Shown here: piece by piece, positions 2,299 through 14,467 of the stretch
Numbering within the stretch: position 1 is the stretch's first letter
Layout of the letters: each line of letters starts with the position of its first letter
NCBI GenBank assembly: GCA_013215865.1
Contig: JABSQL010000031.1
Location: forward strand, 1 to 16,639
Origin: Candidatus Margulisiibacteriota bacterium
GTDB lineage: Bacteria > Margulisbacteria > Marinamargulisbacteria > DT-59
Length of the DNA: 16,639 nucleotides
Direction: 5' to 3'
Notes under the pieces: generated by a model
Databases searched by the model: none
The model's input: only the letters and a program-made list of their open reading frames with translations
What the model was told of the DNA's origin: nothing
Program-made: the position numbers and the translations under genes

Positions 2299-3330
2299 AT
2301 GAAATCGACAAACCCTCAAGTTATTTTACTTATAAGCCCCTATTCTTCAGGTTCTACAATTATTCAGTTTCTTCTAAATAAATCAAACATGTTAAACGTG
2401 ATAGCAAGGCCAAACATACCCATTAAACAAGCAGAACTGGGGTTTATCAATTGGGCGGCTAGATTTTGGCAGATCCCAAAAAAATCTGTTGCATATGATA
2501 CTGTACGAACGATGGATCCTAGATCCGCCGTGTTTAATGAAAGCTGGGTGAAGACATATCGCTTATTTTTAGATGAATCATCAAGTGATGGATCAGAAAC
2601 TATTGAATCTCACTTTATTTCAAATCATTTTAAGCCATTACTTCCAAAATTAGACACTTCATCTTATGACACATTCTCAAAAGAACAAAGGTATGAACTT
2701 ATTAAAAAAGGGTGGATTGAGCTGATTCTTAATCACCAACCGCTTGCCTTTGGAAAACAACCTAAAATTTTGCATGATGCCTCAGGTTGGTCTATTAAAT
2801 TATTAACCAAGCTTTTTAAGGATACAAAAAAGAACATAGATTATACGTTTATTTTCAACCTTAGAAATCCCCTTGATGTGTTCGTCTCACAAGTTAACAG
2901 AAGATTTCGATTTAAAGAAGTCTTTCAAAATCAGGATAAAAAAAGATATATTGAATACATGAGAGATGGCTTAACCCTTGCCTACCAACAATTCATAGAG
3001 TTCAGAAAAGTTATACCAAAAAAAAACCTATTCGTTTTTGAATACGAAAAACTCATCGAAAACCCCTATTCACAACTCAACGTTTTAACGGAGCGTTTAC
3101 AAATTCCAATATCTCTAAATGCCAATTCTATTGTTACTACCAAAACATCAAACCGTTACTTGGCTTACCCATGGGCTACCAAAGAAATTGAGGGCCAATT
3201 GGGACAGTTAGCCATACAATTTGGATACACACTTTTACACCCCTCTTTTCAAAAAAAGATGGCGTCTAAGTTTTCTGTTGTACGAGACAAAATTAACCGC
3301 AGAATACATAAAAAAAAGTTGGTAAACTAA
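2299..3330 (+). CDS. PAPS-dependent sulfotransferase family protein
   Basis: The 343-residue product has both PAPS-binding signatures of the sulfotransferase family. A P-loop-like 5'-phosphosulfate element, SPYSSGSTIIQFLL, lies at residues 13-26. The 3'-phosphate-binding element LRNPLDVFVSQ lies at 188-198, with Arg189 and Ser197 in the expected R-x(7)-S spacing. A FEYEKLIENP segment (247-256) matches the conserved YExL..dP stretch after it. The family moves sulfate from PAPS to a hydroxyl or amine acceptor. The acceptor is unknown, but the locus suggests a surface glycan or a lipid-linked intermediate. The stop overlaps the ATG of the APS kinase by one base (TAATG), so donor synthesis and use are translationally coupled. 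The start is chosen for the adjacent TATAAT; there is no Shine-Dalgarno. Confidence 0.85.
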   Translation: MKSTNPQVILLISPYSSGSTIIQFLLNKSNMLNVIARPNIPIKQAELGFINWAARFWQIPKKSVAYDTVRTMDPRSAVFNESWVKTYRLFLDESSSDGSETIESHFISNHFKPLLPKLDTSSYDTFSKEQRYELIKKGWIELILNHQPLAFGKQPKILHDASGWSIKLLTKLFKDTKKNIDYTFIFNLRNPLDVFVSQVNRRFRFKEVFQNQDKKRYIEYMRDGLTLAYQQFIEFRKVIPKKNLFVFEYEKLIENPYSQLNVLTERLQIPISLNANSIVTTKTSNRYLAYPWATKEIEGQLGQLAIQFGYTLLHPSFQKKMASKFSVVRDKINRRIHKKKLVN

Positions 3331-3884
3331 TGTCAAATAACACCACAGGTTCTGTATTATGGTTCACAGGTTTATCTGGTTCAGGAAAAAGCACATTAGC
3401 TGATATGACTTATAAACATTTTAAGACACAGGGGCTAAGGGTTGAACAATTGGATGGAGATACGGTTCGTCAAATTTTTCCCAATACTGGATTTACAAAA
3501 GAAAACCGGATCGAGCATATCGAACGCATCGGTTATTTGTGTTCTGTTTTAGAAAAGCATGGCATCATCGTTATTGCATCTTTCATATCACCCTATCACT
3601 CCTCCAGGGAATTTGTCCGAAATCTGTGCCATCATTTCATTGAAATATATATGTCTACCCCATTATCTGAGTGTGAAAAACGAGACATAAAAGGGCTATA
3701 TAAAAAAGCACGTCAAAATGAAATTCAAAATTTTACGGGAATAAGTGATCCATATGAAATTCCTAAAGGACCAGAAATCACCCTAAATACCCAAAATAAA
3801 ACAATTGCAGAATCATTTGAAGAATTACTCAATTCAATACAACAAGAAACTTTATTGCCCAATATGACATCAATGACCCTATAG
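3330..3884 (+). CDS. cysC: Adenylylsulfate (APS) kinase
   Basis: This 184-residue cytoplasmic kinase phosphorylates APS to PAPS using ATP. It shows the family motifs in order: Walker A GLSGSGKS (14-21), LDGDTVR (41-47), a GFTKENR segment (54-60), FISPYHSSR (85-93), GLYKKAR (123-129), FTGISDPYE (136-144) and PEITLNT (149-155). Its length is normal for a stand-alone CysC (about 180-200 residues). It is coupled by a one-base overlap to the preceding sulfotransferase, so its likely job is local PAPS supply for glycan sulfation rather than general sulfate assimilation. No ATP sulfurylase (CysD/CysN or Sat) lies in the window, so APS must come from elsewhere. Identification rests on motif order and is firm; dedication to the polysaccharide is inference. 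Confidence 0.93.
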   Translation: MSNNTTGSVLWFTGLSGSGKSTLADMTYKHFKTQGLRVEQLDGDTVRQIFPNTGFTKENRIEHIERIGYLCSVLEKHGIIVIASFISPYHSSREFVRNLCHHFIEIYMSTPLSECEKRDIKGLYKKARQNEIQNFTGISDPYEIPKGPEITLNTQNKTIAESFEELLNSIQQETLLPNMTSMTL

Positions 3885-3927: not shown

Positions 3928-5367
3928 ATGAAAAAATTAGTTGCTAAAAACTTTGTGGTATATTCCATTCCAAATATTATCAGCAAAATGCTGCCGTTTA
4001 TCATCCTCCCCATTACTACCCAGTACCTGACTCTTCATGATTTTGGAATGCTTGCTCTTTTTAATTTATGTCTTCTGCCCTTTACGGTTCTGACTGAGTA
4101 CGGAAGTGGGTACATTATTAATGCTAATTGGCACACTTTTAACCAAAAAGAACGTAAGGAGCTCATGTTTACACTAATGACAATAGGGTTCGTACTCTGT
4201 GCGTTGGCCTTCATATTGATAGGTGGATTTTCAGAGCCTGTATTCAAAGTTTTGGCTGGGGAAGAGTCACAAAATATTGTTCAATTATTTTTATTTCTAT
4301 GCCTAAGTGTAACGGCTTCTATCCCTTCTCGGCTATTTAATAACTGGGTGATTATTGAACAAAAAGCCCTTTTGTGCAGTTTGCTAACTTCAGCCCAAAT
4401 TGCCATTAGTACTATTGCTATGCTAGGGGCAGTTATGCTCACTCAGAGCTATCAAATGATAATTATGGCGAATGTTATGGTTGAAGTTATATTTGCCAGT
4501 ATTCGATTCATTATCTTAATACCTAACTTGACAATTTGCCCTTTAAAAAAGCATTCTCAGTTAATTTTAAATATTGGTAGCCCTATTTTTATCCGTTCAA
4601 TATTTAATCAAATTCGAAGACAGTTTGACAAAGTATTTGTGGCTACTTTGTTTGGTGCTTCCCAGTTTGCCATATACAACTTTTCAGGCCGATTCAACCA
4701 AATTTACGAACTTTTTGATACCAATTTTTCCAAGAGCTTCCAGCCTTCTATTTTCAAAGGTCTTTCAGAAAAAAATCTCCAAGCAAAAAACATAAAAATA
4801 ATACTTTTTACATGGGGACTCATAACGTTAGCTGGTGGGACTTTAATTATCCTTTTTGGACAAATAATTATCCATTTATTAACAAACGGACTTTTTGATA
4901 AGGCCTATCCATTAGTTGTTTTATACACTTGTGTTTTTATTATTGTGTTACCGTTTATGGGACATGCAGAAATCATTGTATTTCATCAGAAGACCCGATA
5001 TCTATTGGGCATGACTGTTATACAAGCAATTATCATTGTAATAGCCTCGTTGTTACTAATACCACGCATAGGAGCTGCTGGCGGTATAATAGCTATGTGG
5101 GTAGGAACTTTAGTATATATGGGGCTTTATTGGGCAAAAAAATCTCAACTTCATCCAGAAGCATTTATTGAAAAAATAATAACCCCTTACGTAGTTGTGT
5201 TTCATATTATGGCCATTTTAAAATATATCGATTTAGATTGGATAGCTGACCCACTAGCAATCAGTCTATTAGCGCTTATTGGGTTTCACTTATTCAGGAT
5301 ATGTTTCATTCATAGGTTCACGAACTTGTCACTTTTTAAGTCTAGAAAAGCCGCACAAATTAGTTGA
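3928..5367 (+). CDS. wzx: Wzx-type polysaccharide flippase (MATE/MVF-like)
   Basis: This 479-residue integral membrane protein has roughly a dozen or more hydrophobic segments spread along its length and few long hydrophilic loops. That is the layout and size of polysaccharide-repeat-unit flippases in the MOP superfamily. The N-terminus (SIPNIISKMLPFIILPITT, then Y-L-x(4)-F-G) matches the amphipathic first helix and following loop typical of Wzx/RfbX proteins. The central QIRRQFDKVFVATLFGASQ stretch at about residues 228-246 matches the conserved region after TM6. Its role would be to move undecaprenyl-diphosphate-linked repeat units across the inner membrane. Substrate cannot be read from sequence. 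It stands between the sulfation pair and the sugar-acid operon, with its own candidate promoter 43 bp or less from cysC. Confidence 0.88.
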   Translation: MKKLVAKNFVVYSIPNIISKMLPFIILPITTQYLTLHDFGMLALFNLCLLPFTVLTEYGSGYIINANWHTFNQKERKELMFTLMTIGFVLCALAFILIGGFSEPVFKVLAGEESQNIVQLFLFLCLSVTASIPSRLFNNWVIIEQKALLCSLLTSAQIAISTIAMLGAVMLTQSYQMIIMANVMVEVIFASIRFIILIPNLTICPLKKHSQLILNIGSPIFIRSIFNQIRRQFDKVFVATLFGASQFAIYNFSGRFNQIYELFDTNFSKSFQPSIFKGLSEKNLQAKNIKIILFTWGLITLAGGTLIILFGQIIIHLLTNGLFDKAYPLVVLYTCVFIIVLPFMGHAEIIVFHQKTRYLLGMTVIQAIIIVIASLLLIPRIGAAGGIIAMWVGTLVYMGLYWAKKSQLHPEAFIEKIITPYVVVFHIMAILKYIDLDWIADPLAISLLALIGFHLFRICFIHRFTNLSLFKSRKAAQIS

Positions 5368-5434: not shown

Positions 5435-6181
5435 ATGACAGATACACCTACTTTTAATTTCGACTTTTCAGGCCAAACTGCTCTTGTAACGGGAGGAACA
5501 AGGGGGATCGGGGAAAACATTGTAAAGTCCTTATCTCAATGCGGTTGCCATGTCGTCTACACGGGCACGACAAAATCGGCGCCTCATCACGTTCCAAACA
5601 CATCCTTTTACACACTCGATTTATCTGATGACTCTTCTATCAAGGCGTTTTTTGAGCAAGCTAAAAAAGACCATCCCAAGATTGATGTTCTCATTAATAA
5701 TGCAGGAATAAATATTATTTCAGATATACGAAACATTAAGCCTCTTGAAGTTGAAAAGGTGATGTCTGTAAATTTATTGGGACCTGCAAAACTCACTTCT
5801 AAAGTGTCATCCATCATGGCTCACCACAAATACGGACGAATCGTCAATATATCTTCTGTTTTTGGAGTAGGATCCCGTCAACAGAGATCCAGTTATTCCG
5901 CCTCAAAAGCAGGACTCATTGGACAGACGCAAGCGGTTGCACTTGACCTAGCAAAAGAGGGTATTCTTGCCAATGTTATTTGCCCCGGTTTTGTTAAAAC
6001 AGAATTAACAGCACGAATGCTTGGGGATAAAGGGATGGCTGAAATAACAAACCGGATTCCTCTTGGAAGATTGGCAGAACCTCATGACATTACGCCCTCC
6101 ATTTTATTTCTTGCAAGCAATCTGAATACCTATATTACGGGTCAAACTCTAGTGGTAGACGGAGGGTATTTAGTTGCATAA
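5435..6181 (+). CDS. SDR-family NAD(P)-dependent oxidoreductase (FabG-like)
   Basis: This 248-residue classical short-chain dehydrogenase/reductase carries the nucleotide-binding TGGTRGIG (19-26), the NNAG structural motif (88-91), Asn113, the catalytic Ser141 and the Tyr154-x3-Lys158 pair in YSASKAG. It also has the PG turn (184-185) and a C-terminal GQTLVVDGG. All catalytic residues are present, so it should be an active carbonyl reductase or alcohol dehydrogenase. FabG-like SDRs act on many substrates. Its place as first gene of an operon with a cyclase, an isomerase and a CMP-sugar synthetase suggests a keto-sugar or keto-cyclitol substrate rather than fatty-acid synthesis. It overlaps the next gene by 8 bp. 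AGGA precedes the ATG by six bases. Confidence 0.85.
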   Translation: MTDTPTFNFDFSGQTALVTGGTRGIGENIVKSLSQCGCHVVYTGTTKSAPHHVPNTSFYTLDLSDDSSIKAFFEQAKKDHPKIDVLINNAGINIISDIRNIKPLEVEKVMSVNLLGPAKLTSKVSSIMAHHKYGRIVNISSVFGVGSRQQRSSYSASKAGLIGQTQAVALDLAKEGILANVICPGFVKTELTARMLGDKGMAEITNRIPLGRLAEPHDITPSILFLASNLNTYITGQTLVVDGGYLVA

Positions 6182-7259
6182 TACCATTAATATTTCATCT
6201 CATATTAAAGACTATACTGTCCATTTTCATGGCATAAACGACCCTGGATACAAAGCCTTATTTGCCACCCATAACATAGCTGTCGTGGATCAAAACGTAT
6301 ATGATCTTTACGGGCATTGTTCTGATACATTTGGAAAACTTTCACATATCATCACACAAGAAGCCGCTGAAACGGTTAAGACAGCTGAAACCAGCCTTAA
6401 AATATGCAATAAATTGTTACGCATTGGTTTCAAGCGTGGTGACTCTATCTTAGTTATTGGCGGTGGTGTCATTCAAGATATCATGACATTTGCTTCTTCG
6501 ATATTATTTCGAGGCATTTCATGGACATTTGTGCCCACTACTTTATTGGCTCAAGCAGATAGCTGTATTGGGGGAAAAAGTTCCCTGAATATGGGTCAAT
6601 GGAAAAACCAAATTGGAAACTTTTATCCCCCTCAGAATATATGCATTGTATCTGATTATTTAAAAACCTTAACAGAACAAGATATACGCTCTGGGATTGG
6701 TGAAATTTTAAAGGTTCACCTTATTTCAGGGATGGACTCAGTGGAATATATTGATCAAAATTTCCCAGATTCAGAACCTCTAAGAGATAAAGCCATGTAC
6801 CGTGCATTATCAATGAAAGCAACTATGATTATGAAGGATGAGTTTGATAGCGGCCCCAGGCTTACCTACAATTTTGGACACACATTTGGCCATGCGCTTG
6901 AGGCAGCAACCCACTTTGGAATGCCTCATGGGATAGCTGTTACAATTGGAGCCGATTTCGCAAATTATATGGCAGCTAAAATTGGACACATATCGGAAGA
7001 CCAATACCAATTCTTGAATAGCATCCATGAAAAAAATATAAGAAAATCAGACTGTGTGAAAGTAGACAAGAATATATTCTTTGATGCCCTTAAGCATGAT
7101 AAAAAAAACACCTCGAATGCATATTGCTTTATCCTCCCCATATCGCTTGGAACTGTTGAAAAAACCTATTTGCCTTTTGATGAGAAGACAGATTCCCTCA
7201 TTCAAAGCTATTTTAGCAAGGTATATGGAAAATATAGTGAGGCACTTGAACCCGCATGA
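6174..7259 (+). CDS. 3-dehydroquinate-synthase-like sugar phosphate cyclase
   Basis: The 361-residue product is of normal AroB length and carries the family motifs: GGGVIQD (96-102), PTTLLAQADSCIGGK (121-135), GEILK (176-180) and NFGHTFGH (233-240). Aligned by spacing with fungal DHQ synthase, every catalytic position I can place is kept: Asp129, Lys135, Asn145, Glu177, Lys180, Lys215, Arg229, Asn233, His236, His240 and His252. A DKK near 309-311 could supply the C-terminal lysine. AroB converts DAHP to 3-dehydroquinate using NAD and a metal; relatives cyclise sedoheptulose 7-phosphate or glucose 6-phosphate. Differences from housekeeping AroB include GGGVIQD for GGGVxGD and HGIAV for HGEAV. 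The start is TTG with a strong GGAGGG (6161-6166) seven bases upstream. It overlaps both neighbours, so it belongs to this pathway. The substrate is undetermined. Confidence 0.8.
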   Translation: MHNTINISSHIKDYTVHFHGINDPGYKALFATHNIAVVDQNVYDLYGHCSDTFGKLSHIITQEAAETVKTAETSLKICNKLLRIGFKRGDSILVIGGGVIQDIMTFASSILFRGISWTFVPTTLLAQADSCIGGKSSLNMGQWKNQIGNFYPPQNICIVSDYLKTLTEQDIRSGIGEILKVHLISGMDSVEYIDQNFPDSEPLRDKAMYRALSMKATMIMKDEFDSGPRLTYNFGHTFGHALEAATHFGMPHGIAVTIGADFANYMAAKIGHISEDQYQFLNSIHEKNIRKSDCVKVDKNIFFDALKHDKKNTSNAYCFILPISLGTVEKTYLPFDEKTDSLIQSYFSKVYGKYSEALEPA

Positions 7260-8068
7260 AAATTTGGAAAAATACAGAAACCTTAAGTGGATATGATGAA
7301 GGCCTGGTATTCACAGATACTAAAGAAGATGCGCATATTGCATTACTGGGAAGCAAATCCATAGAGCTAAATGAATTTCCAAAGTTGAAAGGTATTTTCA
7401 GAGCGGGTATCGGAAAAGACAATGTGCCTATCGCCGAGGCTGAAAAACGGCAAATTACCGTTCGCTTCCCCAGCACAGATACGGTCAACATCATTTTTGA
7501 AGAAACAGCTAATTTTACATGTAGCCTAATATTTAGAATGTTATACCAAAATACAGGAACTATTCAGCCTTGGAAGAAAATTGATCGTTCCCCACTGCAA
7601 CACCAAACATTATTGATCATTGGAAAAGGTAATATTGGTAAACGAGTGGCTCAAAAAATGAGTCTTTTCATAAATGTCATCACGTATGATATTCTCGAAA
7701 ATTCTCCAGCGGATCTTTTATCTTTAATCCCAAAAGCGGATTGTATTTCATTACATATTCCGAATTCTCCTGAAAACATTCATTTTATGGATTCAGAAAA
7801 ACTTACCCTTATGAAAAAGGGCGCGACTCTCATCAACACAGCAAGAGGCTCTATTGTGAGCGAAGAGGCTCTTTTTAAAGCCATAGAATCCCATCATATT
7901 AAAGCCGCTTTTGATGTCTTCTGGAAAGAGCCTTATACTGGAAATCTTGCACAATTCCATCCTGATAGGTTCTATATGACCCCGCATGTCGCAAGTACTT
8001 GTCGAGACTTTTTATTGGGATGTCGCCAAGACATAGATAAAATGATAGGAGATCTACATAATGATTAA
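7256..8068 (+). CDS. D-isomer-specific 2-hydroxyacid dehydrogenase (short)
   Basis: The 270-residue protein has the NAD-binding GKGNIG (123-128) and the catalytic triad of the family: Arg197 in NTARGS, Glu225 in FWKEP and His244 in MTPHVAS. A GIGKDNV element (51-57) corresponds to the conserved G.G.DN of the substrate domain. The family interconverts 2-keto and D-2-hydroxy acids. It is about 40-60 residues shorter than typical members (310-330), the loss lying mostly in the N-terminal catalytic domain before residue 50. The start is an ATGA overlap with the cyclase gene, with only a weak, distant GTGAGG upstream, so translational coupling is likely. In this operon it could act on a ulosonic or cyclitol carboxylic acid, but this is inference. 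Confidence 0.82.
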   Translation: MKIWKNTETLSGYDEGLVFTDTKEDAHIALLGSKSIELNEFPKLKGIFRAGIGKDNVPIAEAEKRQITVRFPSTDTVNIIFEETANFTCSLIFRMLYQNTGTIQPWKKIDRSPLQHQTLLIIGKGNIGKRVAQKMSLFINVITYDILENSPADLLSLIPKADCISLHIPNSPENIHFMDSEKLTLMKKGATLINTARGSIVSEEALFKAIESHHIKAAFDVFWKEPYTGNLAQFHPDRFYMTPHVASTCRDFLLGCRQDIDKMIGDLHND

Positions 8069-9107
8069 TATTGGGATCATTGGGTTTGGTAAAATGGGAC
8101 AAATACGTGCAAAGGCAATTCAAGAATCCGCACTGGGCAAGGTTATTTCTATTTTTGACCCTGAACCCATTGATACCTGTTTTCACCAGGCACAATCTAC
8201 GGAAGAAATCATAAACAATCCACATATTCATGCTGTTTTTATTTGCACGCCTAACTTTTTGAATAAACCTCTGACTATTAATTGTTTGGATAAAGGGAAA
8301 CATGTATTCTGTGAAAAACCACCTGCTTTTACGGCCAAAGATGTGGATGATATACGAAAATCTGAACAAGCATCTCAAAAGGTTTTAATGTATGGCTTTA
8401 ACCACCGCCATCACTGCAGCATACAAAAGATGAAATCTCTCATTGACAGTTCTGAATATGGAAAAGTGTTATGGATGAGAGGTCGTTATGGAAAGAGTGT
8501 GGATCAGGCATTTTATAACAATTGGCGATCTAAAAAAGAGTTGGCTGGCGGGGGAATATTAATTGATCAAGGAATTCATATGTTAGATCTTTTTCTCTAT
8601 TTAGGGGGCCAATTTGATAATGTCCATGCGACTGTTTCAAATTTATATTGGCATTTAGAAGTAGAAGATAATGTATTTGCCATATTAAAAAATAGTAAAA
8701 CCGGTATGGTCGCCTCTCTCCACTCAACCATGACACAGTGGCGCCATTTATTCTCGATCGAAATATTTCTGGAAAGAGGTTATATGGTATTAAATGGACT
8801 TAAAACATCCTCAAATACTTATGGAGATGAAACCCTTACTATTGCGAAAAGCCGATCGACCGCACCTGCAGCAACATGGGAAGATGAAAGAATGGAAACA
8901 TATCACTCTGATAAATCTTGGGCAAGAGAAATCAACGAATTTTTCAAGGCTATTGAAGAAAATCGTCCTGTTCATGTTGGTTCAAGTCAAGACGCCTTAA
9001 ATTTAATGACAGTTATTGACAAAATTTATGCCTCTTCTAATCCTGATGAGTTACCAAATTTGCAAAAGGTTGATACAATCCAAGCCAAAAAGGAACTGAC
9101 CTTGTAA
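8061..9107 (+). CDS. Gfo/Idh/MocA-family oxidoreductase
   Basis: This 348-residue protein starts with a Rossmann domain (IGIIGFGKMG, GxGxxG at 8-13), followed by VFICTPN (59-65) and the family hallmark EKP (85-87). The C-terminal substrate domain shows GGGILIDQGIHMLDL (163-177), where Asp169 and His173 match the conserved D-x3-H catalytic pair. Gfo/Idh/MocA enzymes oxidise or reduce sugar, inositol or UDP-sugar hydroxyls with NAD(P). Length and motifs are ordinary and intact. It overlaps the preceding gene by 8 bp and has an AGGAG nine bases before the ATG. It is the third dehydrogenase in the operon, implying several redox steps on the sugar or cyclitol. The precise substrate is not predictable. 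Confidence 0.87.
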   Translation: MINIGIIGFGKMGQIRAKAIQESALGKVISIFDPEPIDTCFHQAQSTEEIINNPHIHAVFICTPNFLNKPLTINCLDKGKHVFCEKPPAFTAKDVDDIRKSEQASQKVLMYGFNHRHHCSIQKMKSLIDSSEYGKVLWMRGRYGKSVDQAFYNNWRSKKELAGGGILIDQGIHMLDLFLYLGGQFDNVHATVSNLYWHLEVEDNVFAILKNSKTGMVASLHSTMTQWRHLFSIEIFLERGYMVLNGLKTSSNTYGDETLTIAKSRSTAPAATWEDERMETYHSDKSWAREINEFFKAIEENRPVHVGSSQDALNLMTVIDKIYASSNPDELPNLQKVDTIQAKKELTL

Positions 9108-9671
9108 ATGGACGATCACGTATTTATTTCATCATATTTGGATTTATATCAAAAGTCATTGTTTCAAACCAATGTCACTTCTCAGCTCATTTCATTTAAA
9201 AAGAAACTTATTGAAATTAAGGACTCGACAAATAAAATTATGTTCGCAGGTAATGGGGCAAGTGCATCCATCTCAAGCCATTGTGCAGTAGATTTCACTA
9301 AACAGGGGGGCGTGAGGGCTATCAATTTTAATGAGGCTGGGTTAATTACATGCTTTGCAAATGATTATGGTTATGAAGATTGGGTAGCACGTGCCATTGG
9401 TTTTTATGGAAATGAAGGGGATATCGTCGTACTAATTAGTTCTAGTGGAAAATCGCCTAATGTTGTGAGTGCTGCTAAATTTGCAAAAGAAAAAGGTTAC
9501 TATGTGGTAACATTCACAGGATTCTTACCAGATAATCCTTTAAAATCGTTGGGAGACCTCAATTTTTGGGTGGATAGTTCTGCCTATAATATTATTGAAA
9601 ATACCCATCAAATTTGGCTGCTAACTGTGTGTGACTTACTGATAGGAAAAGCTGAATACAAGGTCGTGTAG
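9108..9671 (+). CDS. SIS-domain phosphosugar isomerase (GmhA-like)
   Basis: This 187-residue single SIS domain has the phosphate-binding elements AGNGASASISSH (47-58) and SSSGKSPNV (111-119). It ends with a helix containing IIENTHQIW, like the active-site His region of GmhA. Size and motifs fit the sedoheptulose-7-phosphate isomerase group, which converts the ketose phosphate to D-glycero-D-manno-heptose 7-phosphate. One position is unusual: by my hand alignment Asp62 stands where GmhA has its catalytic glutamate, so the substrate or efficiency may differ. DiaA-like proteins share this fold but would not be expected here. The ATG follows the previous stop directly, with AAGGAA 12 bases upstream. 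An aldose/ketose phosphate isomerisation feeding the NeuB or cyclase step is the natural inference. Confidence 0.8.
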   Translation: MDDHVFISSYLDLYQKSLFQTNVTSQLISFKKKLIEIKDSTNKIMFAGNGASASISSHCAVDFTKQGGVRAINFNEAGLITCFANDYGYEDWVARAIGFYGNEGDIVVLISSSGKSPNVVSAAKFAKEKGYYVVTFTGFLPDNPLKSLGDLNFWVDSSAYNIIENTHQIWLLTVCDLLIGKAEYKVV

Positions 9672-9685
9672 AAAAGGAGAAACTG

Positions 9686-10855
9686 TTGAAAACTATCGCT
9701 ATGATTCCAGCTCGAATGGGAAGCAAACGAGTAAAAAATAAAAACTTAAGACTAATAAACGGAAAACCATTGATTGCATACATTATAGAATCGGCCACTA
9801 ATGCAAATATATTTGACGATATTTACATTAATTCGGAATCAGAAATTTTCAAATCTATAGCGGAACATTATAATGTAAAGTTTTATCATCGACCTCAATC
9901 TCTTGCGTCAGATTCAGCAACAAATGATGATTTCACACTTGATTTCATTAATCACATAGATACTGATATTCTCATACAACTCCTCCCTACATCCCCATTT
10001 ATTACTTCCAAAGATATTCAACAATTTACAAGAAACATGGCAGAAGAAAAACATGAAACATTTATCTCCGTCAGAAACGACCAGATTGAATGCATCTACA
10101 ATAATCAGGCAATAAACTTTGATCAAAAAAAGAAGACGCCGCCTTCTCAAGACCTTAAACCCGTTCAACCCTATGCTTGTGGGCTAATGGGGTGGGAAGT
10201 CAATCGTTTCCGTCAAAATATTGACACCTTTGGCGCGGCTTATCATGGTGGAGATGGAACCATTGGATACTATGTATTGGATGGGTTTTCAACAGTGGAT
10301 ATTGACCGTGAAACGGACTTTCAACTTGCTGAAGCCGTTGCTCTTGCCTTGGAAATGCCACCTAAAAGTCCGGAATACTACACTCCTTGTCAAATACAGG
10401 AAATTGCAGATTCCGACCGAGAACGAATACTAACTGAAGATGGCGTTGCTCATAATACCATGCTGGACTATAACAAAGAGCGTGTATCTTTATCAGCAAT
10501 TATTAACAAAAAAGGGGATCTAGCAAGTTGGTCACACACTATTGTTAACTCACCCTCAAATAGTGCCACTCTTATTGCACAATTACCTGGTGAAGGGAAC
10601 CGGCTGCATTATCATCCAGATTGGGATGAGTGGTGGTATATTGTTAAAGGTGACTGGGAATGGACAATTGAGGGAAAGGTCAAGAAAGTGACAGAAGGTG
10701 ACCTTGTTTTCATTGAAAGGAATCGTCAACATAAAATAACTGCAATTGGAGAAAAAATGGCCATACGTTTAGCTGTTAGCCGAAATGATGTTGATCATGT
10801 ATATGATACGAACTCTTATTCTCACCGAAGGGAACATACTGTTGCTAATAATTAA
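9686..10855 (+). CDS. CMP-sugar (acylneuraminate-type) cytidylyltransferase fused to a cupin domain
   Basis: The protein of 389 residues has two domains. Residues 1-225 are an acylneuraminate-type cytidylyltransferase: the CTP-binding IPARMGSKRVKNKN (7-20), LLPTSPF (99-105) and the metal/substrate segment DIDRETDFQLAE (205-216) are intact. Residues about 265-365 form a cupin: HYHPDWDEWWYIVKGDWEW supplies His308, His310 and Glu315, and His349 in RQHKI completes a metal-binding set. The first domain would activate a 3-deoxy-ulosonic acid with CTP. The cupin could be an epimerase, isomerase or binding domain acting on the same or next intermediate. The start is TTG with AGGAG (9675-9679) six bases upstream; this gives the family-typical N-terminus, while the next in-frame ATG (9701) would trim the first strand. 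Confidence 0.85.
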   Translation: MKTIAMIPARMGSKRVKNKNLRLINGKPLIAYIIESATNANIFDDIYINSESEIFKSIAEHYNVKFYHRPQSLASDSATNDDFTLDFINHIDTDILIQLLPTSPFITSKDIQQFTRNMAEEKHETFISVRNDQIECIYNNQAINFDQKKKTPPSQDLKPVQPYACGLMGWEVNRFRQNIDTFGAAYHGGDGTIGYYVLDGFSTVDIDRETDFQLAEAVALALEMPPKSPEYYTPCQIQEIADSDRERILTEDGVAHNTMLDYNKERVSLSAIINKKGDLASWSHTIVNSPSNSATLIAQLPGEGNRLHYHPDWDEWWYIVKGDWEWTIEGKVKKVTEGDLVFIERNRQHKITAIGEKMAIRLAVSRNDVDHVYDTNSYSHRREHTVANN

Positions 10856-10864
10856 GATAATATC

Positions 10865-12112
10865 ATGAGTAAAAGCTCAGTTTTTGGCATAAAAATTGAT
10901 TTTGAAAAAAGCAACAGTTCATATGTATATGATAAAATCACTCAGGAATCATACCTTGACTTTTTTGGACAGTATTCGACATTGGCAATTGGATATAACC
11001 ACCCTATTTTTTCAACACTCGAATTTCAAGAAGATATAAGGCGTGTATCGTCTATCAAGGTAGCCAACTGTGAAATGCTTTCTGACGAAGCTGAACGATT
11101 TGATCATCAATTCCGCCAATACACATCGAAAGGTATTTTCACCCATTACCATTACACATGCACAGGTGCATTGGCTATAGAATCCGCTCTTAAAACGGCC
11201 ATTGACTACACCCAGATTCAGCAACCTCGATTTATTAATTTCAAGGGCAGTTTTCATGGCATTAATAGCTATGGCGGCATTGTAACAGACCGTTTCTTTC
11301 CAGTGAGTCAACGCTTAGAAGGCCTACCTGGAAAATTTTGGGAACCCTTCCCCAACCCCATCATAGAATATAAAAATAACCAATCCATAATCAGAGAGGA
11401 AAAGGTCCAGCAAGTACTTAATGACATCACTACCCTAATCAAGAATGATCGTCACATAGCTGCTATATTGGTTGAGCCGATTCAGTGTACGTTTGGGGAT
11501 AGGTATTTTCCAAATTCTTTCTTCATAGGAATCCGACGTATTGCAGATGAGTATAATATTCCACTTATTTTTGATGAAATCCAAATTGGCTTTGGAGGAT
11601 CTGGTAAGACATGGTATTTCGAACACTTACCTATTGAGCCTGACATTGTCGCTTTTGGCAAAAAAACTCAGCTATCAGGAATCATGGTGAAGAAAAAGTT
11701 TGCACGGATTTTTGAAACCCCTATTCGTCTTGAAGTCACTTGGGATGCTGATATTATTGACATGATTCGATGCATGTACATTATGAAAGCATATCAACAA
11801 AACTGTGTACTTGAAAATGTGGTTGCGATGGGCAAACGGCTCTACAACGGACTTAAATCAATTCCAAACATCCAAAATATACGACAATGTGGACTTCTGG
11901 TGGGATTTGATTTTGAAACCACTGAACAGCGAAATCAATTCATGAAAATAGTAAGAGAAAATCAGATGATCTGCAACCCAACTCGAGACAAAAGTATCCG
12001 ATTACGCCCTCACCTACTGGTAAATGCCTCTGAAATAGACCACGCCTTAAATATTATGCAAAAAGCAGCACAGACCATTGTAAAGAAACAATTAGCTCAT
12101 GACACCCTCTAA
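10865..12112 (+). CDS. Class III PLP aminotransferase, L-lysine 6-aminotransferase-like
   Basis: The 415-residue product follows the L-lysine 6-aminotransferase (LAT) subfamily of class III aminotransferases along its length. Matching elements are LDFFGQYSTLAIGYNHP (31-47), GALAIESALKTA (101-112), FKGSFHG (126-132), EPIQCTFGDRYF (204-215), FDEIQIGFGGSGK (236-248) and the PLP-lysine segment FGKKTQLSG (264-272), with Asp237 binding the pyridine nitrogen. LAT transfers the terminal epsilon-amino group of lysine to 2-oxoglutarate. In this operon a role aminating a terminal aldehyde or ring ketone of a sugar or cyclitol is plausible but inferred. The usual sugar aminotransferases of such loci are DegT/DnrJ/EryC1 proteins, which makes this one notable. 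It lies 9 bp after the previous gene, has no clear Shine-Dalgarno, and overlaps neuB by 14 bp. Confidence 0.85.
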   Translation: MSKSSVFGIKIDFEKSNSSYVYDKITQESYLDFFGQYSTLAIGYNHPIFSTLEFQEDIRRVSSIKVANCEMLSDEAERFDHQFRQYTSKGIFTHYHYTCTGALAIESALKTAIDYTQIQQPRFINFKGSFHGINSYGGIVTDRFFPVSQRLEGLPGKFWEPFPNPIIEYKNNQSIIREEKVQQVLNDITTLIKNDRHIAAILVEPIQCTFGDRYFPNSFFIGIRRIADEYNIPLIFDEIQIGFGGSGKTWYFEHLPIEPDIVAFGKKTQLSGIMVKKKFARIFETPIRLEVTWDADIIDMIRCMYIMKAYQQNCVLENVVAMGKRLYNGLKSIPNIQNIRQCGLLVGFDFETTEQRNQFMKIVRENQMICNPTRDKSIRLRPHLLVNASEIDHALNIMQKAAQTIVKKQLAHDTL

Positions 12113-13118
12113 AAAACAACACACAAACATCATTGCTGAAATTGGTAATACTCATGAAGGCTCAGTGGGACTTGCAAAGCAGTTTATCAAGTCTGCAGCT
12201 GAGTGTGGAGTAGACACTGTTAAATTTCAAACCCATATTTTTGAAGCCGAAAGTCTTCCCAATGCACCCAACCCACCTTATTTTACCGGCGAAAGTCGAA
12301 AAGAATATTTCGAACGTACGGCATTTAATCTTGGCCAGTACAAACAATTAAAAGAGTTTGCTGAAAAGGAATGTCATGTCAGATTCATATCATCCCCTTT
12401 TTCAATTGAAGCTGTTGATTTACTTGAAGATCTCGGTATTCAGGAATATAAAATTCCTTCTGGTGAGGTGACCAACCTGCCATTACTTAAAAGAATTTTA
12501 CGAACGAATAAACCTGTTCTGTTGTCATCTGGCATGAGTTCTTGGGATGAGCTTGATAGGGCCGTGGAGACTTTAAAATTAAATGGTTCCAGTGATCTCA
12601 CCATTCTTCAATGCACATCTGAGTACCCATGCCCTCCTGAAAATGCAGGGCTAAATATACTATCTGAGATGAAAAAAAGGTTTAATTTGCCTATCGGTTA
12701 TTCCGACCATACTCTTGGGACTGCCATTCCAGTCGCAGCGGTAGTTTTGGGAGCGACTGTTATCGAAAAACATTTCACTCTTTCAAAAAGAATGTATGGA
12801 AGTGATGCCATGAATGCAACTGAGCCTCATGAGTTTAAGAAACTTGTTAAAGCGATACGAGATATAGAAACATCTCTTCACTCCACAGTTAATAAAGACC
12901 AAAAGGCCAGTGAATTGACAATCATGAAGCAAACGTTTGAAAAATCTATTGTTTCAGCTTCTAACCTACCCAAAGGTCATAATATTCAAGATTCTGATCT
13001 CGCATTTAAAAAACCGGGGAGTGGAATCCCAGCTTACAGCTATCAGTCATTGATTGGAAAGGTGATCAACAAAAACATTCCCCAGAATCATATGTTTCAA
13101 CTATCAGACTTCACCTAA
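12099..13118 (+). CDS. neuB: NeuB-family sialic/nonulosonic acid synthase with SAF domain
   Basis: This 339-residue enzyme has the full NeuB layout. The TIM-barrel carries AEIGNTHEGS (13-22), KFQTH (42-46), KIPSGE (118-123), SSGM (143-146), QCTSEYP (171-177), GYSDHTLG (200-207) and EKHFTL (223-228). It ends in an antifreeze-like SAF domain from about residue 281 (EKSIVSASNLPKG... to LIGKVI). NeuB enzymes condense phosphoenolpyruvate with an N-acyl-mannosamine-type aldose to give a 3-deoxy-nonulosonic acid. The cytidylyltransferase two genes upstream is its natural partner. Nothing in the window makes the usual aldose acceptor: no NeuC-type epimerase, no LegB/PseB dehydratase. The true acceptor is therefore open. 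It overlaps the aminotransferase gene by 14 bp and has no clear Shine-Dalgarno, suggesting coupling. It is the last gene of the tight operon. Confidence 0.92.
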   Translation: MTPSKKQHTNIIAEIGNTHEGSVGLAKQFIKSAAECGVDTVKFQTHIFEAESLPNAPNPPYFTGESRKEYFERTAFNLGQYKQLKEFAEKECHVRFISSPFSIEAVDLLEDLGIQEYKIPSGEVTNLPLLKRILRTNKPVLLSSGMSSWDELDRAVETLKLNGSSDLTILQCTSEYPCPPENAGLNILSEMKKRFNLPIGYSDHTLGTAIPVAAVVLGATVIEKHFTLSKRMYGSDAMNATEPHEFKKLVKAIRDIETSLHSTVNKDQKASELTIMKQTFEKSIVSASNLPKGHNIQDSDLAFKKPGSGIPAYSYQSLIGKVINKNIPQNHMFQLSDFT

Positions 13119-13153: not shown

Positions 13154-14467
13154 ATGACAAAATTTGCCTATGGGATTGTTTATTTGGTTTTTTCACTTAT
13201 CCTATTTTGTTGGGCAAGAAAAAGACGAAAGAATCTATTATATGCTTTCCCCATGGCATTTATGCTCATTATTATCCCTCTTGCTTTTGTCGACTATCTT
13301 GGTGGAGATGACATGAAATTGGGAGGAATCCCCATCTCTTTTTTTCCATTTTTTTCGTTTCTACTAGCAATATTTTTTAAACACAAAATTAAAATTAATA
13401 AATATTTTTTAACTCTTTTTCACTTTACTGCTATGATTTCGTTTTACATATTATTCACCTGGATTTTGAACACAAGCACTTTATTAAAAACAATTCCCTA
13501 TGTAGGAATGTTTTTAATGAATTTTATGTTCTTGTTTCTTGTTGCACACTTTGTTTCAAAACTTAAAAAAGACACCATCAATACTATGTTTCTGAAGTTA
13601 GTCCAAATCACACAGATTGGCGCCATCATAGGGATCGTAAAGTTTTTGACCGGATTATCGAGTAGCGCGAATTTTATACCCATGATGAATCGAAATGGAA
13701 CCGCTTTTTGGATGGTGCTTGCATCTATTATTCTCTGCTATGCACGGGAAAAATCAATGATATCAAAACAGAATTTCATAGTCACTAATATAGTATTTTT
13801 AGTCTGTATTATATTCATTGGAAGCCGAATGGGGATTATTGGTTATTTTATGGGCCAGTACTTTTATACTATTTTCTATAGCAACAAGAAAAGAAATACC
13901 ATATCAAAGAAAAGAACTGCATTCATTTTTAGCATCATTCTTGGCATATGTCTTTTATTTTCTCCTTTAGGTGGAACGGTTGTTTCTCGATTTTCGGACC
14001 TTGGGGTCTTATACAAAGCCATGAAAGCAAACGAGTCGAATCTATACCAATTGAGGAGTTACAAACGCATTGTATATTTACAACAAGGTCTTGAACTGAT
14101 TAAGGCCCACTTTTGGTTTGGTACTGGGCCTGGGTTGCACAATTACTTGAAGGGCAAAGAAAAGTTAAACTTGCCATTCAAAGGAAAATCCCATAATTTT
14201 TTCATCTCCTATTTTGCAGAATTAGGACTCATTGGATTTTCCTTGTTAATGTGTTTGATGTTACATTTGCATCATATTTTCAAGAAAAATGGTATACAAG
14301 AAGAAAGAAAGCTTTTTTTATCTATCTGGATGATTGTGATGATCATGTCACTATTTAATGAATATTTTTTTCAGGTTTATATTTGGATTATTTGGGGAAT
14401 AGGTTGCGGACTTTCGCTTAAGTACTATAAAGAAAAAGCATCTGCAAACAAGCTACAACCGGGTTAG
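13154..14467 (+). CDS. wzy: O-antigen polymerase/ligase-like membrane protein (Wzy/WaaL type)
   Basis: This 437-residue protein has about ten or more hydrophobic segments and one larger loop near residues 275-350. The loop and its flank hold the Wzy_C-type signature: NRNGTAFWMV (179-188), GSRMGIIG (223-230), a YKRIVYLQQGLELIKAH helix followed by GTGPG (323-327), and HNFFISYFAELGLIGF (347-362), the H-N-x(8)-E-x-G motif. Such proteins polymerise lipid-linked repeats in the periplasm (Wzy) or ligate glycan to lipid A core (WaaL). The two cannot be told apart from sequence alone. Location in a locus with wzx favours Wzy. The gene lies 35 bp after neuB with only a weak purine stretch before the ATG. 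Its TAG overlaps the stop of the convergent methyltransferase gene. Confidence 0.72.
   Translation: MTKFAYGIVYLVFSLILFCWARKRRKNLLYAFPMAFMLIIIPLAFVDYLGGDDMKLGGIPISFFPFFSFLLAIFFKHKIKINKYFLTLFHFTAMISFYILFTWILNTSTLLKTIPYVGMFLMNFMFLFLVAHFVSKLKKDTINTMFLKLVQITQIGAIIGIVKFLTGLSSSANFIPMMNRNGTAFWMVLASIILCYAREKSMISKQNFIVTNIVFLVCIIFIGSRMGIIGYFMGQYFYTIFYSNKKRNTISKKRTAFIFSIILGICLLFSPLGGTVVSRFSDLGVLYKAMKANESNLYQLRSYKRIVYLQQGLELIKAHFWFGTGPGLHNYLKGKEKLNLPFKGKSHNFFISYFAELGLIGFSLLMCLMLHLHHIFKKNGIQEERKLFLSIWMIVMIMSLFNEYFFQVYIWIIWGIGCGLSLKYYKEKASANKLQPG

Follow-up and report, generated by a model that had tools for sequence, protein, structure and literature searches.

An eight-gene operon of Candidatus Margulisiibacteriota with separable enzyme sets and a possible phosphoenolpyruvate-free route to a CMP-activated sugar acid

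Which product is made by an operon that joins a NeuB-family synthase to a cyclase resembling 3-dehydroquinate synthase (DHQS)? The question is raised by contig JABSQL010000031.1 of a Candidatus Margulisiibacteriota bacterium, the 16,639 nucleotides of which are called the window here, where eight open reading frames (ORFs) occupy positions 5435-13118 of the plus strand. They encode an SDR oxidoreductase, the usual partner of the cyclase (5435-6181; Pfam adh_short_C2, 7.8e-54), the DHQS-like sugar-phosphate cyclase/phospholyase, with a TTG start (6174-7259; DHQ_synthase and DHQS_C), a D-2-hydroxyacid dehydrogenase (HADH) with a short N-terminus (7256-8068; 2-Hacid_dh_C, 3.5e-35), a Gfo/Idh/MocA dehydrogenase (8061-9107; GFO_IDH_MocA), a GmhA-like SIS-domain sugar-phosphate isomerase (9108-9671; SIS_2, 4.4e-10), a cytidylyltransferase with a fused C-terminal cupin (CMPT-cupin) and a TTG start (9686-10855; CTP_transf_3, 4.4e-25; Cupin_2, 3.3e-14), a class III aminotransferase resembling lysine-6-transaminase (10865-12112; Aminotran_3, 6.2e-58) and a NeuB-family synthase of a distinct clade (12099-13118; NeuB, 5.4e-78; SAF). 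The junctions from 5' to 3' are overlaps of 8, 4 and 8 bp, a distance of 0, gaps of 14 and 9 bp and an overlap of 14 bp, so the initial annotation of eight one-strand genes overlapping or at most 14 bp apart is borne out by the ORF coordinates, and its families by Pfam, as all eight exceed the gathering scores. Family cut-offs throughout are the curated scores of NCBIfam and the gathering scores of Pfam; Pfam was applied to the window proteins and to selected proteins of related loci, NCBIfam and PHROGs to selected proteins.

The operon is a real one, and an unusual one. Its enzyme sets recur separately, both in environmental phages and in other bacteria, and to judge from the sequences several exchangeable sets fit it better than one NeuB pathway. 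We tentatively propose, at somewhat short of an even chance, that its product is a sugar acid, CMP-activated and probably amino-bearing, for a Wzx/Wzy-type surface glycan that is probably sulfated; the route would be free of phosphoenolpyruvate (PEP) and would use the cyclase as phosphate remover. The earlier suggestion of a CMP-activated sugar acid with a non-standard precursor route is supported.

Recurring sets and an apparent exchange of cyclase for phosphatase

A plasmid search with the Gfo/Idh protein (E ≤1e-45) yielded three records, from Leisingera, S. fredii SMH12 and Paenibacillus, and one with the CMP-transferase (E ≤1e-30) yielded two. Among 74 genomes of the phylum the Gfo/Idh search found four copies, the window's own and those of genomes G036, G046 and G066. 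Genes for HADH, SIS isomerase and CMP-transferase adjoin the close Gfo/Idh relative in all six other loci from both Gfo/Idh searches (the genes of locus L253 and the CMP-transferase of the S. fredii locus, L254, were assigned from annotation, Pfam and translation). The window Gfo/Idh protein is 53-63% identical to the copies of G036, G046, G066 and S. fredii. Catalytic residues of these families are retained: R197, E225 and H244 of HADH are each shared by 12 or more of the 13 rows, and the EKP and D-x3-H motifs of Gfo/Idh and H58/D62/E164 of the SIS protein are kept in every row or in all but one. None of the six loci has NeuB inside the set, and in G046 and G066 a different NeuB-type gene lies 4-5 kb off. 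The initial annotation placed the SIS isomerase and the dehydrogenases in the service of a NeuB acceptor, a claim that finds no support here: S. fredii, Leisingera, Paenibacillus, G036, G046 and G066 all have these enzymes next to a CMP-transferase in a set that does not include NeuB. The grouping itself is not due to chance, because another genome of the phylum (G046, locus L191) has seven of the eight operon genes side by side, and several other loci have five or six.

Comparison of these loci revealed a difference in the remaining enzyme. In those of Leisingera, S. fredii, Paenibacillus and G036 an inositol-monophosphatase-type gene is present and the cyclase is absent; in those of the window, G046 and G066 such a phosphatase is absent, and the cyclase is present together with an SDR. 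Together with seven further loci found via the cyclase (L024, L025, L026, L027 and the phage contigs L121, L150 and L171), the 14 Gfo/Idh loci comprise ten with the cyclase, four with the phosphatase and none with both, the split being 3:4 in the seven from the Gfo/Idh searches. For independent loci, the probability of so clean a division is 1 in 35 with the seven and 1 in 1001 with all 14, seven of which were chosen by their cyclase. A similar pattern was found on phage contigs. Of 38 deduplicated phage units with CMP-transferase and aminotransferase, 24 have a cyclase within 7.5 kb; only 2 of the 24, but 10 of the 14 others, have an HAD active-site motif no further than 5 kb from the CMP-transferase (Fisher P = 1e-4, kinship ignored), leaving four of the 14 with neither. 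Cyclase and phosphatase genes thus tend to replace each other. That a phosphatase-like gene tends to occur where the cyclase is missing, in two settings, is our main reason for regarding phosphate removal as the job of the cyclase.

In the 120 CMPT-cupin homologs listed of 2396, at 58-65% identity, both domains are present. A scan of IMG/VR with this protein gave 42 relatives among 48 pattern matches on phage contigs, in which a recurrent unit consists of CMPT-cupin, aminotransferase, SIS protein, SDR and cyclase. The aminotransferase copies in CMPT-cupin loci are 35-51% identical to the window protein, which scores 261.8 bits against TIGR03251 (cut-off 520.8), so that its lysine-6-transaminase label denotes resemblance only. 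NeuB was found in none of 19 chosen phage records bearing the CMP-transferase, some of which may be fragments, and this further weakens the claim of a NeuB acceptor. An HADH above the family cut-off occurs in one of the 19 (L150), again with the proviso that records may be fragments. On L150, a T4-like phage contig, CMP-transferase and cupin are two separate adjacent genes (7786-9233); the window fusion therefore joins functions that also travel side by side. By blast, GT29-like and MptE-like proteins lie near many phage units, and the copies of L114 match PF00777 at 26.8 bits (cut-off 23) and PF01973 at 39.1 bits (cut-off 34.6). Phage origin rests on flank genes scanned against PHROGs for four contigs and on the IMG/VR assignment for the rest. 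L150 matches clamp loader, processivity factor and primase, and L116, which is not a CMP-transferase unit, matches UvsX; the one flank protein each of L111 and L235 had no match in PHROGs. Among 50,697 named phage records the CMP-transferase had no match at E ≤1e-20.

Two further features of the CMP-transferase loci were observed. In two of the four phosphatase loci a YhcH/DUF386 gene stands beside the CMP-transferase (L255, 4621-5103; L290, 12013-12477). The DUF386/YhcH family includes a sialate anomerase, and the protein is possibly an anomerase here, perhaps with the same role as the fused cupin of the window. The S. fredii set includes a 259-aa protein without a Pfam match (L254, 6401-7180), possibly fumarylacetoacetate-hydrolase-like by eye.

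The cyclase clade and the proposed route

The best NCBIfam model for the cyclase is TIGR04425, which matches nearly its whole length at 366.8 bits, under the cut-off of 400, a cut-off passed in none of 36 genomes, the window's own among them. Against the AroB model TIGR01357 it scores 245.6 bits, under the cut-off of 305. The cyclase alignment held 158 distinct rows from the fetched loci (201 ORFs of suitable length, 157 once duplicates were removed), and a quick tree separated 88 cyclase rows from 70 AroB rows by a branch with SH-aLRT support of 100. Two of the 88 are repeats, L005 of the window and L106 of G046, a locus also represented by L191. Gln101 and Cys131 are common to the cyclase clade, where AroB rows mostly have Gly and Ser. 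Plain AroB was rejected as an identity for the window protein, which misses the TIGR01357 cut-off and is placed outside the AroB clade.

All DHQS catalytic and carboxylate-binding residues are present in the window cyclase. In A. nidulans numbering, R130, D146, K152, K161, N162, E194, K250, R264, N268, H271, H275, H287 and K356 are found in 88 of 88 rows, and the K197 position is Lys in 54 rows, the window included, and His in 34. Arg264 is a carboxylate ligand in DHQS, and its retention favours a 2-keto-acid phosphate as substrate over one of the DOI or EEV synthase type. Against solved structures the cyclase scores 234.9 bits with DHQS (3clh), 163.2 with DOI synthase and 135.6 with ValA (4p53); with DHQS as the closest solved relative, an aminocyclitol argued from the DOI and EEV synthases was rejected. 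Lys180 of the window cyclase, equivalent to DHQS Lys197, is a possible specificity marker, since all 24 cyclase rows in the phage group with CMP-transferase and aminotransferase have His at this position.

The best homolog of the cyclase is 59% identical. When IMG/VR was scanned with the cyclase alignment, 114 relatives came up, of which the top 80 were retained; a search of named phages with the cyclase gave 14 records at 28.7-32.5% identity. In 80 of the 88 rows an SDR gene is found at a distance of no more than 9 kb from the cyclase. HADH accompanies nine of the ten rows with Gfo/Idh and none of the rows without it (88 rows, two repeats).

The clade also occurs in other settings. In related loci generally, the labels TPP enzyme, RfbH, FGGY, GMD, KdsA, NeuA, HisC-type, KdsB and phage NeuB-like come from sequence reading and blast against those copies. 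In one further setting, seen both in phages and in bacteria that belong to the phylum of the window, cyclase and SDR stand with an HpcH/HpaI aldolase, mostly together with a TPP enzyme and an RfbH-like protein, labels assigned mostly by eye (L164, L165, L168, L169, L172, L173, L175, L177, L178, L181-L183, L185-L190 and L193-L197). Some other phage contigs of the clade combine a TPP enzyme with a NeuB-like gene that is more remote in sequence; there, again with labels by eye, SDR, cyclase and an FGGY-like kinase complete the set (L137, L142, L152-L157, L161, L162, L174, L176, L179 and L180). These latter sets may be alternative ways of making a phosphorylated 2-keto acid. A TIGR04326 surface carbohydrate protein, a candidate transferase, was found near the cyclase set in L024 (15739), L025 (14275) and L026 (12377), which span three phyla, at 441.6-491.4 bits (cut-off 250).

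Passages of PMC7144000 describe how classical DHQS acts on a C7 2-ulosonate 7-phosphate: C5 is oxidised, phosphate is eliminated, C5 is reduced, and the ring opens and re-closes. A GmhA-type SIS isomerase, Gfo/Idh and HADH would supply such a substrate in three steps. In the route that we propose, the SIS protein would convert a ketose phosphate, probably sedoheptulose 7-phosphate, into an aldose phosphate, Gfo/Idh would oxidise C1 to give an aldono-lactone, and HADH would oxidise C2 to give a hept-2-ulosonate 7-phosphate with no need for PEP. The DHQS-like enzyme would then take off the phosphate by transient oxidation and beta-elimination, not by hydrolysis, leaving a carbocycle, as in known relatives, or a 7-deoxy-6-ketone. 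The SDR may reduce this ketone or its product, the class III aminotransferase would add the amine, and the cytidylyltransferase would activate the acid, with the cupin as a possible anomerase. NeuB may be a later addition, which either extends the product or makes a second sugar from a precursor supplied elsewhere in the cell. A broader version is possible but doubtful: a CMP-activated C7 ulosonic-type acid made without condensation with PEP or pyruvate, whose far end, carbocyclic or deoxy versus CH2OH, is set by a DHQS-clade enzyme that bacteria and phages exchange with a phosphatase.

Several points weigh against the proposed route. The C7 size, the C1 oxidation and the 2-keto acid are all deduced from the gene families, and the SIS protein is only weakly GmhA-like (79.5 bits, cut-off 209.45). 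The route does not explain the phage units without HADH; in the 18 of 19 phage records that lack it at the family cut-off, the carboxylate would have to come from elsewhere. Units that lack the cyclase contain the aminotransferase too, the ketone for which may therefore have another source. The counts of phosphatase and cyclase loci ignore relatedness, and the cyclase itself was the query that led to the majority of the cyclase loci. A carbocycle has no anomeric centre and is therefore a poor fit with CMP activation, which a 7-deoxy acid would fit. In addition, a NeuB-type or HpcH aldolase gene is present in the region of 6 of the 14 Gfo/Idh loci: in or next to the set stand the window NeuB, a NeuB-family gene of only 250 aa beside the core five genes in L027, and an HpcH aldolase in L025 and G036 (L290), the others being the more remote genes of G046 and G066. 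C3 addition may therefore be commoner than we assume.

NeuB and the rival explanations

The 119 other NeuB homologs listed, from Vibrio, other genomes and metagenomes, are 62-68% identical to the window protein; since the best homolog of the cyclase is less similar than these, NeuB seems to have its own history. Its catalytic residues are kept, with a Lys, in a KKPG motif, at the position of Arg314 in Neisseria NeuB. The 70-85 region has the loop 'NPPYF...ESRKEYFERTAF'. Nine other NeuB proteins of the phylum have Arg at the Arg314 position and a different 70-85 loop, and of three more distant ones (L002, L277 and L291) only L277, from G046, has Lys there. This 70-85 region is tied to C4-C6 specificity in passages of PMC7371886, which also give Ser at position 184 as a Pse-type residue. 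By motif, that Ser is present in 118 of the 119 homologs of the window clade; it is not distinctive, because it recurs in 6 of the 9 ordinary NeuB proteins found in the phylum. The window NeuB falls below both curated cut-offs, with 352.5 bits against the NeuB model (399.65) and 251.2 against PseI (340.25). In the IMG/VR scan with the NeuB clade, just one of 54 matches proved to be a relative, and a weak one, at 34% identity. NeuB as the fixed core of the pathway was rejected, given its absence from the 19 phage records and the recurrence of the sets with no NeuB among them. On these comparisons NeuB is a distinct, common clade that looks added on to the other seven genes and not their fixed partner.

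How could such a NeuB be supplied? Pfam gave no family match to NeuC, a Leg/Pse dehydratase, DegT or an acetyltransferase among the window proteins, which agrees with the initial annotation that no canonical NeuB-feeding gene is present. The window is an entire contig of a metagenome-assembled genome of 2.2 Mb in 495 contigs, 78.5% complete, which has on contig C95 a partial NeuC-like gene at the contig edge (163.1 bits, cut-off 235.9) and a CMP-transferase; NeuB may therefore be fed in trans. A second NeuC match (106 bits, same cut-off) is on contig C128 and another NeuB on C56, and the PseC matches score 97.6 and 41.4 bits (cut-off 423.5). The initial annotation had named complete NeuC, Leg or Pse genes just beyond the window as what would speak against its reading, and the partial gene and CMP-transferase of C95 go halfway towards this.

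These observations bear on an alternative with two products, in which the seven other genes yield a cyclitol or aminocyclitol, and NeuB forms an ordinary nonulosonic acid, using a precursor of the ManNAc (N-acetylmannosamine) type provided by NeuC elsewhere in the genome. It agrees with the genes of C95 and with a NeuB untied from the other seven genes. In Rhizobium sp. WL3, moreover, a NeuB that shares the KKPG motif and is 51% identical is clustered with NeuC and an acylneuraminate cytidylyltransferase. Yet the Lys at the Arg314 position and the different 70-85 loop do not suggest an ordinary NeuB, the window holds a single CMP-transferase, and the cyclase is nearer to DHQS than to DOI or EEV synthase, and we consider this explanation unlikely. 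The initial annotation had raised two linked products as well; of that idea, the duality is closer to the evidence, but the aminocyclitol is unproved. Rather improbable, in our view, is a reading along the main line of the initial annotation, with one unusual ulosonic acid for which SIS isomerase, Gfo/Idh, HADH and cyclase build an aldehyde, NeuB condenses it with PEP and the CMP-transferase activates the product. The single operon-like run of all genes, the unusual NeuB loop near the sugar site and the NeuB-type and HpcH genes of L027, L025, G036, G046 and G066 would suit it; however, L027 excepted, the sets of the other Gfo/Idh loci do without NeuB among them, and the separate history of NeuB also argues against it.

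Cyclase and SDR might instead form a device for terminal deoxygenation, in which phosphate is eliminated without ring closure and a reduction then leaves a 7-deoxy ulosonic acid, with a normal anomeric centre for the CMP-transferase. Related units with CMPT-cupin and aminotransferase carry either cyclase and SDR or an HAD gene, the SDR is a regular neighbour of the cyclase, and the NCBI family is named a phospholyase. We know of no characterised cyclase of such a deoxygenating type. Moreover, ring opening and closure in DHQS show little participation of the enzyme, according to passages of PMC7144000, so preventing closure would need special control, and we regard this explanation as distinctly improbable.

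Genomic setting, known systems and meaning

The proposed route would end in a surface glycan. A Wzx-like flippase gene (3928-5367; Polysacc_synt, 1.1e-13) lies upstream of the operon, and a gene for a Wzy/O-antigen-ligase-like protein (13154-14467; Wzy_C, 1.2e-17) starts 35 bp past NeuB. Directly upstream of the flippase gene, a sulfotransferase (2299-3330; Sulfotransfer_3, 2.6e-07) and an APS kinase (3330-3884; APS_kinase, 6.2e-52) are encoded with a one-base overlap, and the glycan is probably sulfated, with its own supply of PAPS (3'-phosphoadenosine 5'-phosphosulfate). These flanking genes are on the strand of the operon, and together they point to a surface-glycan locus. On the minus strand, a 628-aa protein (341-2227) that may not belong to the locus has a weak likeness to the LIC12162 family transferases (TIGR04331, 63.3 bits, cut-off 225) and no Pfam match. 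A promoter and terminator scan gave about what is expected from shuffled sequence.

In the Kdo pathway, KdsD, KdsA, KdsC and KdsB act as isomerase, PEP-condensing synthase, phosphatase and CMP-activating enzyme. The operon resembles it in the SIS-type isomerase, the loss of phosphate and the activation of an ulosonic acid by a CTP_transf_3 enzyme, but would have two dehydrogenases in place of PEP condensation, and cyclase and SDR in place of the phosphatase. No operon protein had a family match to KdsA, and the KdsB model scored 32.8 bits (cut-off 155.2). According to PMC7371886, the three nonulosonic acid pathways all depend on condensation by NeuB as their key step. The operon shares with the Neu, Leg and Pse pathways a NeuB-family synthase and a PseF-like CMP-transferase, whereas NeuC and the dehydratase, DegT and acetyltransferase genes are unmatched in the window and its NeuB is of a distinct clade; a standard operon of this kind was rejected on these unmatched feeding genes and the missed NeuB and PseI cut-offs. 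With the sugar-phosphate cyclase superfamily (DHQS, DOIS, EEVS, DDGS and EboD), as outlined in parts of PMC5133447 and PMC4426668, the window cyclase shares its Pfam families and the DHQS catalytic set, but its clade is separate, lies in glycan loci and is absent where the phosphatase gene is present. TIGR04425, named as an AroB-related putative sugar phosphate phospholyase (cyclizing), is its best model, although the protein scores below the cut-off and the model is a hypothetical-equivalog with no named pathway. No description of the gene set or route was found in the open-licence papers searched, mostly by title and abstract.

The phage units suggest that some uncultured phages may make activated sugars for their own transferases. 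If true, the two-oxidation route would widen the range of sugar acids to be expected in bacterial and phage glycans, and it would explain surface-sugar clusters that are now labelled '3-dehydroquinate synthase' and 'phosphoglycerate dehydrogenase'.

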